A stretch of DNA of 64,000 nucleotides from Leptolyngbya iicbica LK (GTDB taxonomy: Bacteria; Cyanobacteriota; Cyanobacteriia; Phormidesmidales; Phormidesmidaceae), in the NCBI RefSeq assembly GCF_004212215.1, contig NZ_QVFV01000002.1:991528-1055527 (forward strand). The letters are read 5' to 3'. The first letter of the stretch is position 1. The number at the start of each line of letters is the position of its first letter. Below, in pieces: positions 6,270 through 11,771 of this stretch. Below the pieces are notes generated by a model that was not told the DNA's origin, searched no databases, and was given only the letters and a program-made list of their open reading frames with translations. The translations under genes and the position numbers were made by a program.

Positions 6270-7528
6270 CTAGTACTCAACGGCACAAATAAGCATAGCC
6301 ATTATGCGGTTAAGGGCTTGCCCGTATAGTTCCATTTGAAAGGCTTGGCCATGGTGTGGTTTGAAAGGCTTGGCCATGGTGCGGTTGAAGTAATCGATGA
6401 AGTCGAGAATCTTAGCCTTGAGATGAGCTTGACTGGTAAAACTGGAGCGTCGCAGCAGCTTCCGCATGAGAATGGAGAACCAGATTTCGATTTGATTGAG
6501 CCAGGAACAATGCTTCGGCGTGAAATGGACAACCAAACGGTGCTCTGGATTGGTCAAGAAAGCGTTGCGAGTGGCCATCGACTGAAGAATACCGAATTTG
6601 CCCTTTTCCCCTAATTGAATGGGCGCGGGTTCCAGGGCGGCGGTCAGCCGCACCAAAGCTTCTGATTGATGGGTATTGAGGCAGTCCATCACCAGATGAA
6701 TTTTGGGGGCCTCGGCCACTGGGGCGAGCAGGGCTTGGAGATGGGCCTCTAAATCTTTCTCCGTGCGGGTGTCGCCGACGGTCGCCTGGTCAATGCGCCC
6801 GGTAGCGACATTCAAGGTGGCAATCAAGGTTTGGGTGCCATGGCGACAGTATTCAAACTCGACTCGCACACAGCGCCCCGGTTTCATCTCAATATCCGGC
6901 ATCACGCGCTCTAAGGCCTGAATACCCGTCATTTCATCAAGACTATAGGTCACCTCTCCACGTCCAGAGCGCTCGGCGGCCTGTTCGTAGACCTGGCAGA
7001 TGTCTTCAACTTTCCTGGCAAAGTCTGGGTCCGGGGGGGATGAAGCCAGTAACGACTCTGGTGCGGTTTCAGTTCTGCTTCGGCGAGCAAGCGACCCACA
7101 TGGCGACCGCTGATACTCTCCACAATGCCTTGTTTGACCAGTTCATCGGCTAACTCTCGGGGTGTCCAATGACTCAGAGGACGTCCATATTGCTCGGGCG
7201 GTGCACAAGCTAACGCATACAACTGGGTGATCTGCTCCAAAGTAAACGTCGCGGGGGCACCCGCACGAGGGGCATCAGCCAACCGCTCTGCCACGGGCAG
7301 TTCAGATGCCTGTAGCGCCTGCCACCGTCGCCGCCAACAGCGACTCATTTGCTCCCCAATGGCCAACTCCCGCGCAATCTGACCTTGGCTTTCCCCTTCA
7401 CTGGCACGGAGAATAATTTTGCCGCGCAACGCCAGTTGCTGGGGCGTACTCGGTCGCTTCACCAACTGCTCGAGTTCATGGCGTTCGGTTTCGCTCACAA
7501 TGAGGGCGGGCAGGGCGCGACCAGGCAT
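6270..7528 (-). pseudogene. IS630-family transposase, two frame lesions
   Basis: Read from 7528 on the minus strand, the first 160 or so residues contain the helix-turn-helix region (IARELAIGEQMSRCWRRRWQ) and the winged segment ending RYWLHPP. Frame is lost at a run of seven Gs on the plus strand (7033-7039; Cs in the gene). Adding one C restores PPPDPDFARKVEDICQVYEQ, leading into the DDE domain (YSLDEMTG, LVMDCLNTHQSEAL, FTPKHCSWLNQIEIWFS). A second lesion, a 25-bp tandem duplication at 6335-6384, shifts the C-terminus. Without it the frame ends MAKPFKWNYTGKPLTA with a stop at 6302-6304, a family-typical ending. Two independent lesions argue for decay; slippage at the C run could in principle rescue only the first. 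Confidence 0.88.
6335..6384. repeat. 25-bp tandem duplication inside transposase 3' end
   Basis: Two adjacent 25-bp units (6335-6359 and 6360-6384) begin TTTGAAAGGCTTGGCCATGG and differ at one base (TGTGG versus TGCGG at the end). Because 25 is not a multiple of three, the duplication changes the reading frame of the last part of the transposase. Confidence 0.95.
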
Positions 7529-7597: not shown

Positions 7598-7930
7598 TAT
7601 CGTTTGGGTAAGCAACTCAATTCTGCATTCCTCATCAAACCAAAATCGTTTGAATATTCGTCGACTCTCGCCCAGTCTGGTATAGCGATTTGCCTCAGAT
7701 GGGAGAACAATCACATCGATTAGACAGCCATAATTCACTGTCTCGATTTGCTATGAATTATTTATTTAACACGCCATCCAGCTTTCAAAGAAGTCTGAGC
7801 AATTTGTAGAAATAAGTTCCAGTTAGCCTGACTAATCAGCAAGCAATTTAGCCACTAGCGAGGCTTATATTGAATTAAGATAACGGTCACTTAAGCAAGT
7901 CCACTGTCTTCGTATTTATACTTGCTTGTT
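7598..7930. other. Intergenic region right of IS element, nothing recognised
   Basis: About 330 bp between the IS right end and the start of the duplicated upstream block. It is AT-richer than its surroundings. I found no convincing coding frame with a ribosome-binding site, no tRNA and no clear terminator. Confidence 0.5.
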
Positions 7931-8519
7931 CAATATTTTCACGGAAGTCATCAGGCCCCAACATATGTGAAATTTATACGAAGAAAATGGCTGCGCTCAG
8001 GTCTTCATGACTGCTGAATTATACGGAAACCGCTTTGATTTCCTTCAGTAAAATGTCATGATTGCAACGCAGTATTTTCTGGACTCTGATGGTGCATATC
8101 TACCAACCAAAGGTGATGTCAGGGTCAGAAAAGACAATAGCCCGTAAATATCTACCCGTGAATGTCTGCAGGATATCTAGAATCGTTCAGCGTGACTTAA
8201 TCAGTGAATGACTTTCTAGAAAAGGACTCAGTAGTCGAAGTTCGGGACAAATCATTTGACCTCAGTATTATCTCAAATCTAGGCTTTACAGCTGCCTTAG
8301 TTTGAGGACATTGCTGACTCTTCTAGCTACGCTCTAGGAGAGTCAGCATGATTTGTTGATCGTTTAGTCAAGAGGCTATGCGAATTCTTCAGCGTGGGCT
8401 TTTGTCGCGCAAGCATTTTGCTGGCTATTGCTTCACAGCCGTCTTCGATTACTTTTTACTCGTCTTTTCTGCCCTGGTTTCACCGGTTCATCATCTGAAA
8501 ACACCTTCAGGGAAAAACC
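7931..8519 (+). repeat. Upstream block, copy A of the tandem duplication
   Basis: This non-coding stretch aligns with 10132-10718 from CAATATTTTCACGGAAGTCA up to the start codon of each paralogue, at an almost constant offset of about 2,200 bp. Similarity is patchy but clear, with strong blocks such as CTCTGATGGTGCAT and AAAGGTGATGTCAG. The last 45 bases before the ATG are nearly identical between copies, including a small hairpin, CTGAA (8495-8499) pairing with TTCAG (8506-8510), whose 3' arm runs into the AGGG ribosome-binding site. It presumably contains the promoter and leader of the gene at 8520. No recognised factor-binding motif was seen. Confidence 0.8.
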
Positions 8520-9977
8520 ATGAAACTAATCAGCTTAAATGACAACACGGTCAAATTTGGGCCAAGTACCTCAGAGGCAACTTTAAAGAACCTCGGTGCC
8601 GCTAGCATCACGTTTGGCAACACCACGATTTATATCGGCACTTTTCAAGAATCGAGTAACAATCAAGACCCTATTGTGACCAGTTTCACCAATGGCAGTC
8701 GTGATTGGACTCAGTATTACGACACTTCTGGCATTGACGGTCGGGGCGTGGGCTTGCTGTGGAACGGAATATCGCAAAATTTGTATGGGGTATTCACGGC
8801 TGATGGCGGCTCCCAGGGAGCCAATACGTTTGGCCAAGTGACCCAGGGGGGGTGGCTCTCGGGATATGGCTCTGGTGGGGGGGCAAAGGTGAGTGTATTG
8901 CTCAAGCTCAACCCCGCGACGGGGGCATCAGAGGCAGGTACGTTTATCCGCGCCCAACTTGCCAACGGTAATACCAACACCTTGATGCCTGTCGATCTAG
9001 ATTTTGTTGGTAATCAAGTCGTCTTTTTCGGTGATTCTTTCTTCACCCCCCTGGATGTCAATCGCCAGCGGTTCAACAATCAAAATCCAGCTTTCAACAG
9101 TCCATTTGACTATCGGGTGGTGTTGAGCCCTGATCTGTCGCGAGCGACCAGCGCTGAAGCCATTGGTTGGAATGGTGTCACTGCGTTTGGCGCGTCTGGG
9201 GGGCAGGGAGCAAATCGTTATGGTGGCGGTCTCTTTCTGGCTTTGAGCCTGTCTGCACAAATTGGTGTCGCCGGATTTGGCCACCCAGTTAGCACCTTTG
9301 GCACCGTAATAAATGGCATTAACATCGAGCACATTTTTGATGAGGGGTATTATTTAGCTACGAATCCTGATGTTGCCACAGCCGTCAAAGCGGGTCAGGT
9401 CGAGTCGGGCTATCAACATTTTCTCGTTGCCGGCTTGGCAGAAGGTCGCGGACCATTCCAGTTTTATGACGAAGCGTTTTACCTCGCCCAAAATGCCGAT
9501 ATTGCTTCGGCGGTATTATCTGGAGCCTTAACGAGTGGGTTACAGCATTTTCTCTCTTTCGGCCATGAAGAAGAGCGCGATCCTTCTGCAGCGTTTGATA
9601 GCAGTGACTATTTGCTGAGCAATCCAGATATCAAGAGCGCCGTTGATAATGGCGCGATCGCTAGCGCATTTGAACACTTCGCGAACTTTGGTTTAACCGA
9701 AGGCCGCTTTTCAGATGTCCTGCTATTTGACGAGAACTACTATCTGGCAAATAACGCTGATGTGGCACAAGTTGTGAATGCTGGCCTGGTCAACTCCGGG
9801 TGGGAACATTTCCTCACTTTTGGCCAAACCGAGAAACGTGACCCCAGTGCTAATTTCAGCCAAGAGACCTATTTGTCACTTCATCAAGATGTTGCTGGGG
9901 CGATCGCAAACGGAGGCATGCCGAGTGCGTTTTATCACTACGCAGCCTTTGGTATTGCCGAAGGTCGAGCGATATAA
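8520..9977 (+). CDS. Paralogue of adjacent PEP-CTERM protein, lacking signal peptide, with five C-terminal repeats
   Basis: A 485-residue protein of unknown function. Residues 5-225 align closely with residues 27-250 of the gene at 10719 (shared blocks NNQDPIVTSFTNG, YYDTSGIDGRGVGLLW, GVFTADGGSQG, GWLSGYGSGGG, VFFGDSFF). The paralogue's signal peptide is missing exactly after the first two residues, MK. Instead of the PEP-CTERM tail, residues 273-483 hold five units of 43-44 residues with the pattern FDxxYYLAxNxDVAxAVxxG...HFxxFGxxEGR. Such repeats occur in bacterial secreted and calcium-binding-type proteins. Export, if any, would need a C-terminal (type I-like) signal; that is inference. 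Start supported by the leader shared with the paralogue. Confidence 0.8.
   Translation: MKLISLNDNTVKFGPSTSEATLKNLGAASITFGNTTIYIGTFQESSNNQDPIVTSFTNGSRDWTQYYDTSGIDGRGVGLLWNGISQNLYGVFTADGGSQGANTFGQVTQGGWLSGYGSGGGAKVSVLLKLNPATGASEAGTFIRAQLANGNTNTLMPVDLDFVGNQVVFFGDSFFTPLDVNRQRFNNQNPAFNSPFDYRVVLSPDLSRATSAEAIGWNGVTAFGASGGQGANRYGGGLFLALSLSAQIGVAGFGHPVSTFGTVINGINIEHIFDEGYYLATNPDVATAVKAGQVESGYQHFLVAGLAEGRGPFQFYDEAFYLAQNADIASAVLSGALTSGLQHFLSFGHEEERDPSAAFDSSDYLLSNPDIKSAVDNGAIASAFEHFANFGLTEGRFSDVLLFDENYYLANNADVAQVVNAGLVNSGWEHFLTFGQTEKRDPSANFSQETYLSLHQDVAGAIANGGMPSAFYHYAAFGIAEGRAI
9336..9968 (+). repeat. Five tandem 43-44-residue protein repeats
   Basis: Units begin at residues 273, 316, 359, 403 and 447 of the protein at 8520. 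Shared positions are an initial aromatic-Asp, YLxxNxD(V/I), a small-residue helix, a central Gly, then (E/Q/Y)H(F/Y) and FG. The units diverge at DNA level, so they are not a recent expansion. Confidence 0.88.
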
Positions 9978-10131
9978 CGCTGAGGTTGAACACAAATCAT
10001 TGCCCGTGTGCACTGGTATTCCTGAATTCAGCAAAGTTTGAGGCCTGATTGAGGAACGCCCCTTCATGAAATCTTGAACAAAGTCTGGGGAATTGTGTAG
10101 AAAATACGGAGACACCGATACCGGCATCATT

Positions 10132-10718
10132 CAATATTTTCACGGAAGTCAGTAGTCCCCGGTATATGTGAAATTCTTACAAAGAAAACCACTGCGTTAC
10201 ATGATGATGCCTGGGAAATTATACGCAACCTGCTTTAATTTCCTTTAGGAGAATTTCATGATGACGTCACCGGATTTTCTGTGCTCTGATGGTGCATGTC
10301 TACCAGGAAAAGGTGATGTCAGAGTCGGAAAAGGCGAGACTGGCCCGCGAACGTTTACAGGATGTCTAGGATTGTTTGGCGCTGTTCTATGTACGCATAG
10401 TGACCGAGAGCCACCATTTTCTAGTGAAAGATGAGTTAGCGACCGTTCGGGTTCAATCAGTGGGTTTTAGTCTTCTTGATCATTTGAGCGGCCAAGCCTG
10501 ATGAACGACTTGGCACCAAATAGCTTGATTTTGTGTCTTTGGCGACGATCGCTCAGTCTGACTCACTGAGTGGGTTCGACGTTGCTGAGCCACAATGAAC
10601 TGACGAGTGGCGCTCCCCCGCTGCTGAACTCGTGCGTGCCTATCTTTGCGTCTCTTGCCAGTCTTTTCCGCTTTGGTTTCACTGATTCATCATCTGAAAA
10701 CACCTTCAGGGAAAAACC
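10132..10718 (+). repeat. Upstream block, copy B of the tandem duplication
   Basis: The second copy of the block at 7931-8519, ending at the start codon of the PEP-CTERM gene. The leader hairpin CTGAA/TTCAG (10694-10698 and 10705-10709) and the following GGGAAAAACCATG are preserved exactly. A 58-codon frame at 10258-10434 is present here but its counterpart in copy A stops early, so I do not call it a gene. The gap from 9978 to 10131 contains nothing recognised. Confidence 0.8.
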
Positions 10719-11771
10719 ATGAAATCAATCTTTGCGGCTGCGATCGCGGCGACCTTGGGCAGTTTAAGTGCTCTGCCAGCTGATGCTGCAGCATTTAGTA
10801 GTTTGAATAACGGGGTCGTCAAATTCACCCCGACTGTTTCAGAAAACGATTTAATCGCCCTCAACGCTGCCAGCATTTCGTTTGGCGATACTAGTATCTA
10901 CATCGGCACTTTTCAAAAAGGTGCAAACAATCAAGATCCGATCGTCACTAGTTTTACCAATGGCACCCGTGACTGGATTCAGTATTACGACACTTCTGGA
11001 ATTGATGGTCGCGGTGTCGGTCTGCTCTGGGATGAAGCGTCTCAAAATCTATACGGGGTATTTACTGCCGATGGTGGCTCTCAGGGAGATGAGACCTTTG
11101 GGCAGGCAACCCAAGACGGTTGGCTCTCGGGATATGGCTCTGGTGGCGGGGCAGCAGTGAGTGTATTACTCAAGCTCAACCCCACTACAGGGAGTTCGGA
11201 AGCAGGGACATTCATTCGGGCGTTACTGTCTGGAGGAGATACTAATACTTTGAGGCCCGCAGGCTTAGACTATGTTGACGATCAGGTGATCTTTTTCGGT
11301 GACTCTTTCTTCGCGCCGGTGGATGTCGACGGGCAACGATTTGATAATGCCGATCTCGCGCCGGGTTTTGACACGCCCTTTGAGTATCGGGTCGTCCTTC
11401 AGTCTGATCTATCCCAAGCTAACAGCGCAGAAGCGATCGGCTGGAATGGCGTGACTGAGTTTAGTCCACTAACGACCGCATCCGGTGGTGACACCGGTGG
11501 CTCTGATAGTGGCAACGATGGTGAAACCACAGGTGCTGGCGGCGGCGCTGGCACACCTGATAGTGGTGATGGCGCATCGACTGGCGACGAGACCACTCAG
11601 GAGGATGAGCCGGTCACAGGCGGTACTGGCGGCGAGATTGTTGACGACATCGAACCTGGTGAAGCCACCGAATCGGTGCCAGAACCGGGGGTTTTAGTCG
11701 GTTTGTTGGTGATTGTGGCAGTTGGCGTGTGGCAGCAGCGATCGCGCACCGTTGGCTCCGAGACCGCTTAA
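10719..11771 (+). CDS. PEP-CTERM sorting domain-containing secreted protein
   Basis: A 350-residue protein with a Sec signal peptide (MKSIFAAAIAATLGSLSALP, cleavage likely after ADAAA), a globular domain to about residue 250, a Gly/Ser/Asp/Thr/Glu-rich linker (about 255-315), and a C-terminal VPEPG motif followed by a hydrophobic helix and basic end (QQRSR). That last module is a PEP-CTERM signal, recognised by an exosortase that handles proteins bound for the cell surface or extracellular matrix. No exosortase gene is in the window. The globular domain is shared with the protein at 8520 and has no assigned function. A 10-bp-stem terminator follows. Confidence 0.86.
   Translation: MKSIFAAAIAATLGSLSALPADAAAFSSLNNGVVKFTPTVSENDLIALNAASISFGDTSIYIGTFQKGANNQDPIVTSFTNGTRDWIQYYDTSGIDGRGVGLLWDEASQNLYGVFTADGGSQGDETFGQATQDGWLSGYGSGGGAAVSVLLKLNPTTGSSEAGTFIRALLSGGDTNTLRPAGLDYVDDQVIFFGDSFFAPVDVDGQRFDNADLAPGFDTPFEYRVVLQSDLSQANSAEAIGWNGVTEFSPLTTASGGDTGGSDSGNDGETTGAGGGAGTPDSGDGASTGDETTQEDEPVTGGTGGEIVDDIEPGEATESVPEPGVLVGLLVIVAVGVWQQRSRTVGSETA

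Follow-up and report, generated by a model that had tools for sequence, protein, structure and literature searches.

Two described delivery routes come closest to the locus reported here. Proteins sorted by exosortases (EpsH, cyanoexosortase) carry a signal peptide, an extracellular-type body and a PEP-CTERM tail composed of a VPEP motif, a hydrophobic stretch and a basic end. In Nostoc, the place of PEP-CTERM proteins in the exoproteome depends on an exosortase, and how such proteins cross the outer membrane is described as unclear (PMC12188702). Type I substrates, such as RTX proteins and large adhesins, have no signal peptide; RTX proteins are exported via an uncleaved C-terminal signal, and type I signals occupy the ∼60 C-terminal residues (PMC3034196). 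Here we report a pair of related genes from a 64,000-nucleotide stretch of Leptolyngbya iicbica LK (contig NZ_QVFV01000002.1, positions 991,528 to 1,055,527 of the forward strand; hereafter the window), of which one encodes a protein resembling the first type and the other a protein that has neither of its sorting signals and ends in five short repeats. Sequence comparison shows the duplication, the in-frame loss of the signal peptide, the exchange of the tail, the conservation of the result, purifying selection on it and the mobility of the new C-terminal module.

The two genes, copy 1 (8520-9977, plus strand, 485 residues) and copy 2 (10719-11771, plus strand, 350 residues), lie in tandem and share a domain of ∼220 residues, which begins directly after Met-Lys in copy 1 (8520-9194, plus strand) and occupies 10791-11477 (plus strand) in copy 2. 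An earlier sequence-only reading had proposed that they are head-to-tail paralogues with related upstream blocks of nearly 590 bp, and nucleotide-level alignment bears out both parts: the heads are 74% identical over 221 aligned codons, with a ratio of nonsynonymous to synonymous substitution (dN/dS) of 0.11 at a dS of 1.7, and local alignment pairs 7918-8519 with 10118-10718 (both plus strand; the latter also by DNA search). The block alignment spans ∼590 bp, starts 13 bp farther out than had been proposed, runs up to the start codons and scores 309, whereas the best of 20 shuffles reaches 38, with conservation highest at the far end and in the final ∼60 bp before the ATG. When the copy-2 block was used as a DNA query against the L. 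iicbica genome, nothing beyond the two blocks was found below E 0.4, and the shared head occurs in this genome at these two loci only. The same block precedes both genes in two further genomes, Halomicronema sp. CCY15110 (G001) and G028. Its far part (7925-8215 and 10125-10400 of the window) includes a highly conserved run across all six genes (CTCTGATGGTGCA, TCTACCA, GAAAAG); a search of the blocks for structured RNA in Rfam returned a single chance-level match (22.4 bits vs 62) and leaves this conservation unexplained by Rfam.

Copy 2 looks like an exosortase-sorted protein. Its signal peptide (10719-10790, plus strand) is recognisable by eye and scores 2.14 under our own hydropathy rule, which has a cut of 1.9 and also fires on membrane proteins in controls. 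Its tail (11673-11768, plus strand) shows the VPEP motif, hydrophobic stretch and basic end by eye, although it falls below both curated cut-offs (Pfam PF07589, 13.2 vs 20.7; NCBIfam TIGR02595, 13.8 vs 16 bits). The genome encodes two exosortases (PF09721, 186.8 and 168.3 bits; cut-off 25.7), and the exosortase-dependent route described for Nostoc is the one that copy 2 should take. The G028 counterpart of copy 2 (L233 8662-9675, minus strand) departs from the pattern in reading VSEP instead of VPEP; the same gene lacks the first, far ∼118 bp of the upstream block, and an ORF (open reading frame) near it looks transposase-like. Both the signal peptide and the PEP-CTERM tail are absent from copy 1. 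Since its N-terminus reads MKLISLNDN where copy 2 has MKSIFAAAIAATLGSLSALPADAAA, it lacks ∼22 codons in frame, and its hydropathy score is 0.29. The possibility of an in-frame signal peptide farther upstream is ruled out by a TGA at 8496-8498 (plus strand), which limits the open frame to 492 codons for a protein of 485 residues. The sequence-only reading was thus right to assign a Sec signal peptide and a PEP-CTERM-like tail to copy 2, and to see copy 1 as cut off right after Met-Lys.

The C-terminal end of copy 1 is a module of ∼248 residues from about residue 238 (9231-9974, plus strand), made up of a linker of ∼35 residues followed by five repeats, at 9336-9464, 9465-9593, 9594-9725, 9726-9854 and 9855-9974 (all plus strand). 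The repeats begin at residues 273, 316, 359, 403 and 446 (spacing 43, 43, 44 and 43), and the last ends 2 residues short of the C-terminus. The module is delimited by DNA homology to the gene C10:12242-13711 (L012 7243-8712, minus strand), to which copy 1 is 71% identical from ∼9230 to just past the stop, the heads being unrelated. It had been proposed that five repeats of 43-44 residues replace the anchor; the repeats are confirmed, but the replacing segment begins before repeat 1, because the ∼35 residues preceding it are also part of the module.

Modelled on its own with AlphaFold (mean predicted local distance difference test score, pLDDT, 77.5), the module has three short helices in each repeat. 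A Foldseek search of the PDB with this model gave no match at E 10 or better, and VIA-align gave none among 3 chains; these negatives do not demonstrate a new fold. In Pfam and NCBIfam the module has no match over cut-off, the nearest for copy 1 being DUF5338 (18.8 vs 25.9 bits); a literature search found no paper on the repeat, and Pfam, NCBIfam and the PDB likewise give the module no name. Among predicted structures, its best two matches are giant-virus glycosyltransferases (E 2.5e-5 and 1.4e-4), with low template modelling (TM) scores of 0.23 and 0.16 by query length. Copy 1 thus shares with the repeat-bearing glycosyltransferases found in bacteria and giant viruses a helical repeat of ∼40 residues and these structure matches, but the TM-scores are low, the heads are unrelated and the glycosyltransferases are likely intracellular.

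The chimera occurs in three genomes in all: in tandem in L. iicbica and, with its partner, in CCY15110, and in G028 with the copies 2.8 Mb apart. Between genomes, copy 1 has dN/dS of 0.10-0.16 in the head and 0.11-0.17 in the module; some copy-2 dS values are saturated (2.3, 2.9 and infinite), and ratios from those are rough. In a head tree of 26 sequences the six genes of the three genomes form one clade (83/95), within which the branching order is not resolved by the tree. The next branches outside it are the forms from G018, G007, G010, G019 and G011, all of which start with what is by eye a signal peptide; VPEP tails are present in the three whose ends are complete, the other two being truncated at contig ends. 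Because the forms with a signal peptide, which come from other genera, fall outside the pair in the tree, the signal-less form appears to be derived, and no module match was found at E 1e-10 in five signal-peptide-form family members outside the genus. In the sister clade, the long proteins that bear the domain seem to have no signal peptide, although the N-termini of most of them fall at the boundary of the retrieved sequence. These trees are most simply explained if both signals were lost once, and the module gained once, along the copy-1 line, and on such comparative grounds the swap is old, directional and under purifying selection. An independent origin of the two architectures is not supported, given that both copies fall in one clade and have a common upstream block, so that the earlier proposal of local duplication followed by a change of architecture in copy 1 stands.

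The module has moved among unrelated proteins. All seven module proteins of the L. iicbica genome (7/7) end in repeats, 2-5 residues from the C-terminus; in five relatives of the genus the module lies 2-9 residues from the C-terminus in 30/30 loci examined, out of a larger number of matches, and 1-9 residues from the end in 24/24 ORFs retrieved at greater length. In these relatives there are mostly five repeats, with position-specific sequence. The heads include cadherin/Ig giants, DUF4347, CBM6/35 and CAP proteins (Pfam) and, by eye, FG-GAP-like and subtilase-like ones. Only one of the 24 ORFs exceeds the signal-peptide cut, and it does so from a TTG start far upstream of the likely Met. A tree of modules groups the three copy-1 tails with two C10-type tails in a single clade (100/100). 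G008 encodes a relative of the C10-type head (56% identity) that likewise has a five-repeat tail, but this tail groups elsewhere, and forcing the three C10-type tails together, the G008 homologue included, is rejected by the approximately unbiased (AU) test (p 6.3e-7). Since head and tail histories conflict, heads and tails must have been exchanged. C10 is a possible donor of the copy-1 tail, but the G028 copy 1 lies outside the C10-type tails in one tree (80/84), a position that the other tree does not resolve. Beside these, a 1265-residue protein ending in the module (L304, G015:C62, 1214-5011, plus strand) has by eye a ubiquitin-like stretch at its start.

Across a wider sample, the module is present in 25/244 cyanobacterial genomes surveyed. 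The repeat survey comprised 88 ORFs, drawn from stretches around 60 loci together with L. iicbica, the window, CCY15110 and six stretches from named plasmids; removing seven plasmid-record ORFs and two duplicates left 79 repeat proteins, six of which run off their stretch. By the hydropathy rule, signal-peptide-like starts were found in 1/79 repeat proteins vs 54/283 neighbouring ORFs (Fisher p 1.1e-5). Pfam domains detected in the 63 repeat proteins scanned include PPC (8), RTX (6), DUF4347 (4), CAP (4), PhoD (3) and GDSL lipase (3).

We propose that copy 1 is no longer sorted by Sec and exosortase but takes a Sec-independent route, most likely HlyB/HlyD type I secretion, with the module as a surface or glycan tether, a reading to which we give an even chance. 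In this reading, an ancestor of the genus had a gene for a Sec-exported, exosortase-sorted surface protein, and the gene was duplicated along with the control block upstream of it. One copy then lost its signal peptide by an in-frame deletion of ∼22 codons and exchanged its PEP-CTERM tail for a mobile C-terminal module circulating among unrelated signal-less proteins of the genus. Copy 1 would still be exported, independently of Sec and most likely by HlyB/HlyD, and the module may tether it to the cell surface or sheath, perhaps through glycan binding, since the module recurs in glycan enzymes and surface proteins. In this way, related control regions would govern a single head that reaches two destinations along two routes.

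The type I part of this proposal, already suggested by the sequence-only reading, fares unevenly. The L. iicbica genome encodes a HlyB-type transporter (TIGR01846, 787.1 vs a cut-off of 725.55) with an adjacent HlyD that scores just below its cut-off (204.4 vs 208.65), the heads that carry the module are typical of extracellular proteins without signal peptides, and HlyB is found in 113/244 genomes and in 23/25 of those with the module. Of the two exceptions, G069 has the single repeat protein with a signal peptide and the G172 ORF, of 203 residues and with two repeats, lies at a contig end. Copy 1 resembles type I substrates in its lack of a signal peptide and in the presence of HlyB and HlyD in the genome, and the repeats recur in RTX proteins (6/63); it differs in that its C-terminal secretion signal is only putative and that no secretion genes are linked to it in the 64-kb window.

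Several observations weigh against the proposed route. Within the class, HlyB is present in 23/23 module genomes vs 77/94 others (p 0.023; class total of 117 taken from list order), a modest difference that genome size and kinship confound. The distance from HlyD to the gene pair is 4.9 kb in G001 but ∼567 kb in L. iicbica, and most genomes compared have HlyD far away or on a different contig; by eye, among the matches listed, module genes and type I genes are close only in G001 (4.9 kb) and G104 (∼16 kb). A blastp search of flanking ORFs with the HlyD of Rhodospirillum rubrum found none beside the 60 surveyed module loci, and linkage to type I genes was rejected as a general proof of the route. 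RTX repeats were not found in copy 1 (no PF00353 match at E up to 1), which may therefore work like a type I substrate rather than be an RTX protein. The repeats lie at the C-terminal end in only 22 of the 79 proteins, as opposed to the N-terminal end in 40 and the middle in 17, and because 57/79 carry them at the N-terminal end or in the middle, the repeat itself is not a universal C-terminal signal; nor, given its further presence in glycosyltransferases and phage ejection proteins, is it generally reserved for export. Nor does the head assist: its AlphaFold model, built with four relevant alignment rows, is poor (pLDDT about 25-45) and the head therefore offers no functional clue, fold searches with it were meaningless given the model quality, phmmer gave a weak match to alginate lyases (E 0.06), and a search of viral contigs for relatives of the head domain found none. 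Finally, glycosyltransferases normally act inside the cell, and the repeats occur in such enzymes, with Glycos_transf_1 in 3/63 scanned repeat proteins.

The last observation leads to the alternative, also raised by the sequence-only reading, that copy 1 stays inside the cell, its export signals simply lost and its helical repeats serving an internal purpose such as partner binding or a glycan-synthesis complex. The absence of a signal peptide, the glycosyltransferases just mentioned together with one on a Paracoccus yeei plasmid, and the giant-virus glycosyltransferases that head the structure matches, low TM-scores notwithstanding, are all consistent with a cytoplasmic protein. However, the heads joined to the module in L. 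iicbica and its relatives are mostly of extracellular types, and the closest relatives outside the pair have signal peptides; we regard a cytoplasmic copy 1 as the less likely destination, and rather improbable. Another alternative makes copy 1 a functionless, decaying by-product of duplication and recombination, given that both sorting signals are gone and that two insertion sequence (IS)-like ORFs lie just upstream (6270-7528). Yet the gene is open in three genomes with the same start and the same end, and dN/dS of 0.10-0.17 in head and module across these genomes rules out a pseudogene, so that we consider decay extremely improbable.

If copy 1 is exported as we propose, the five-repeat module might itself be the export signal, a Sec-independent sorting tag for any head. 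Its extreme C-terminal position in 30/30 loci and 24/24 ORFs, the usual number of five repeats with position-specific sequence, the many unrelated heads, the near absence of signal peptides and the demonstrated exchange of tails would all suit such a tag, but in the 57/79 proteins with related repeats at the N-terminus or in the middle any type I signal would need another position, and the module is longer than the ∼60 residues of type I signals as described in PMC3034196. We think it unlikely that the module is itself the export signal.

A wider version of the proposed tether is that the five-repeat, all-helical module represents an undescribed cyanobacterial delivery-and-tether tag, which would take unrelated signal-less heads through a Sec-independent exporter onto surface glycan, with the present pair caught as its family switches from exosortase sorting; this is a tentative idea that we would not yet expect to hold. 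Were it to prove a portable tag, the module would place many unnamed cyanobacterial proteins and might serve for display or secretion. Whatever the route, the two genes have the same head and related upstream blocks but differ in both sorting signals at once, and so constitute a natural test of what each signal does in a cyanobacterium and of how a bacterium can redirect a protein to another export route and destination. It also bears on the many large signal-less cyanobacterial surface proteins that have no assigned route. More generally, it is a variant of domain shuffling in exported proteins in which the shuffled module is mobile and without a name.

Related repeats also occur elsewhere. 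They are present in 59 plasmid records; the annotations of the 40 listed include RTX, M10 metallopeptidase and glycosyltransferase. A repeat-bearing RTX gene of Rhodospirillum rubrum is one gene away from HlyD and permease genes. Viral contigs (L221 and others) contain one or a few repeats, in a phage DNA ejection protein and other large phage proteins. The phage DNA ejection proteins (phrog_598) are like copy 1 in that two such repeats were detected in L221, but they are virion proteins with fewer repeats (one or two) and no five-repeat module. At L108 (G149:C1:2961020-2970627), at least six adjacent genes each have a four-repeat version of the module at their start. Within the window, the IS-like ORFs immediately upstream of the gene pair lie on the minus strand, overlap, and resemble a transposase of the IS630 type split across two frames.

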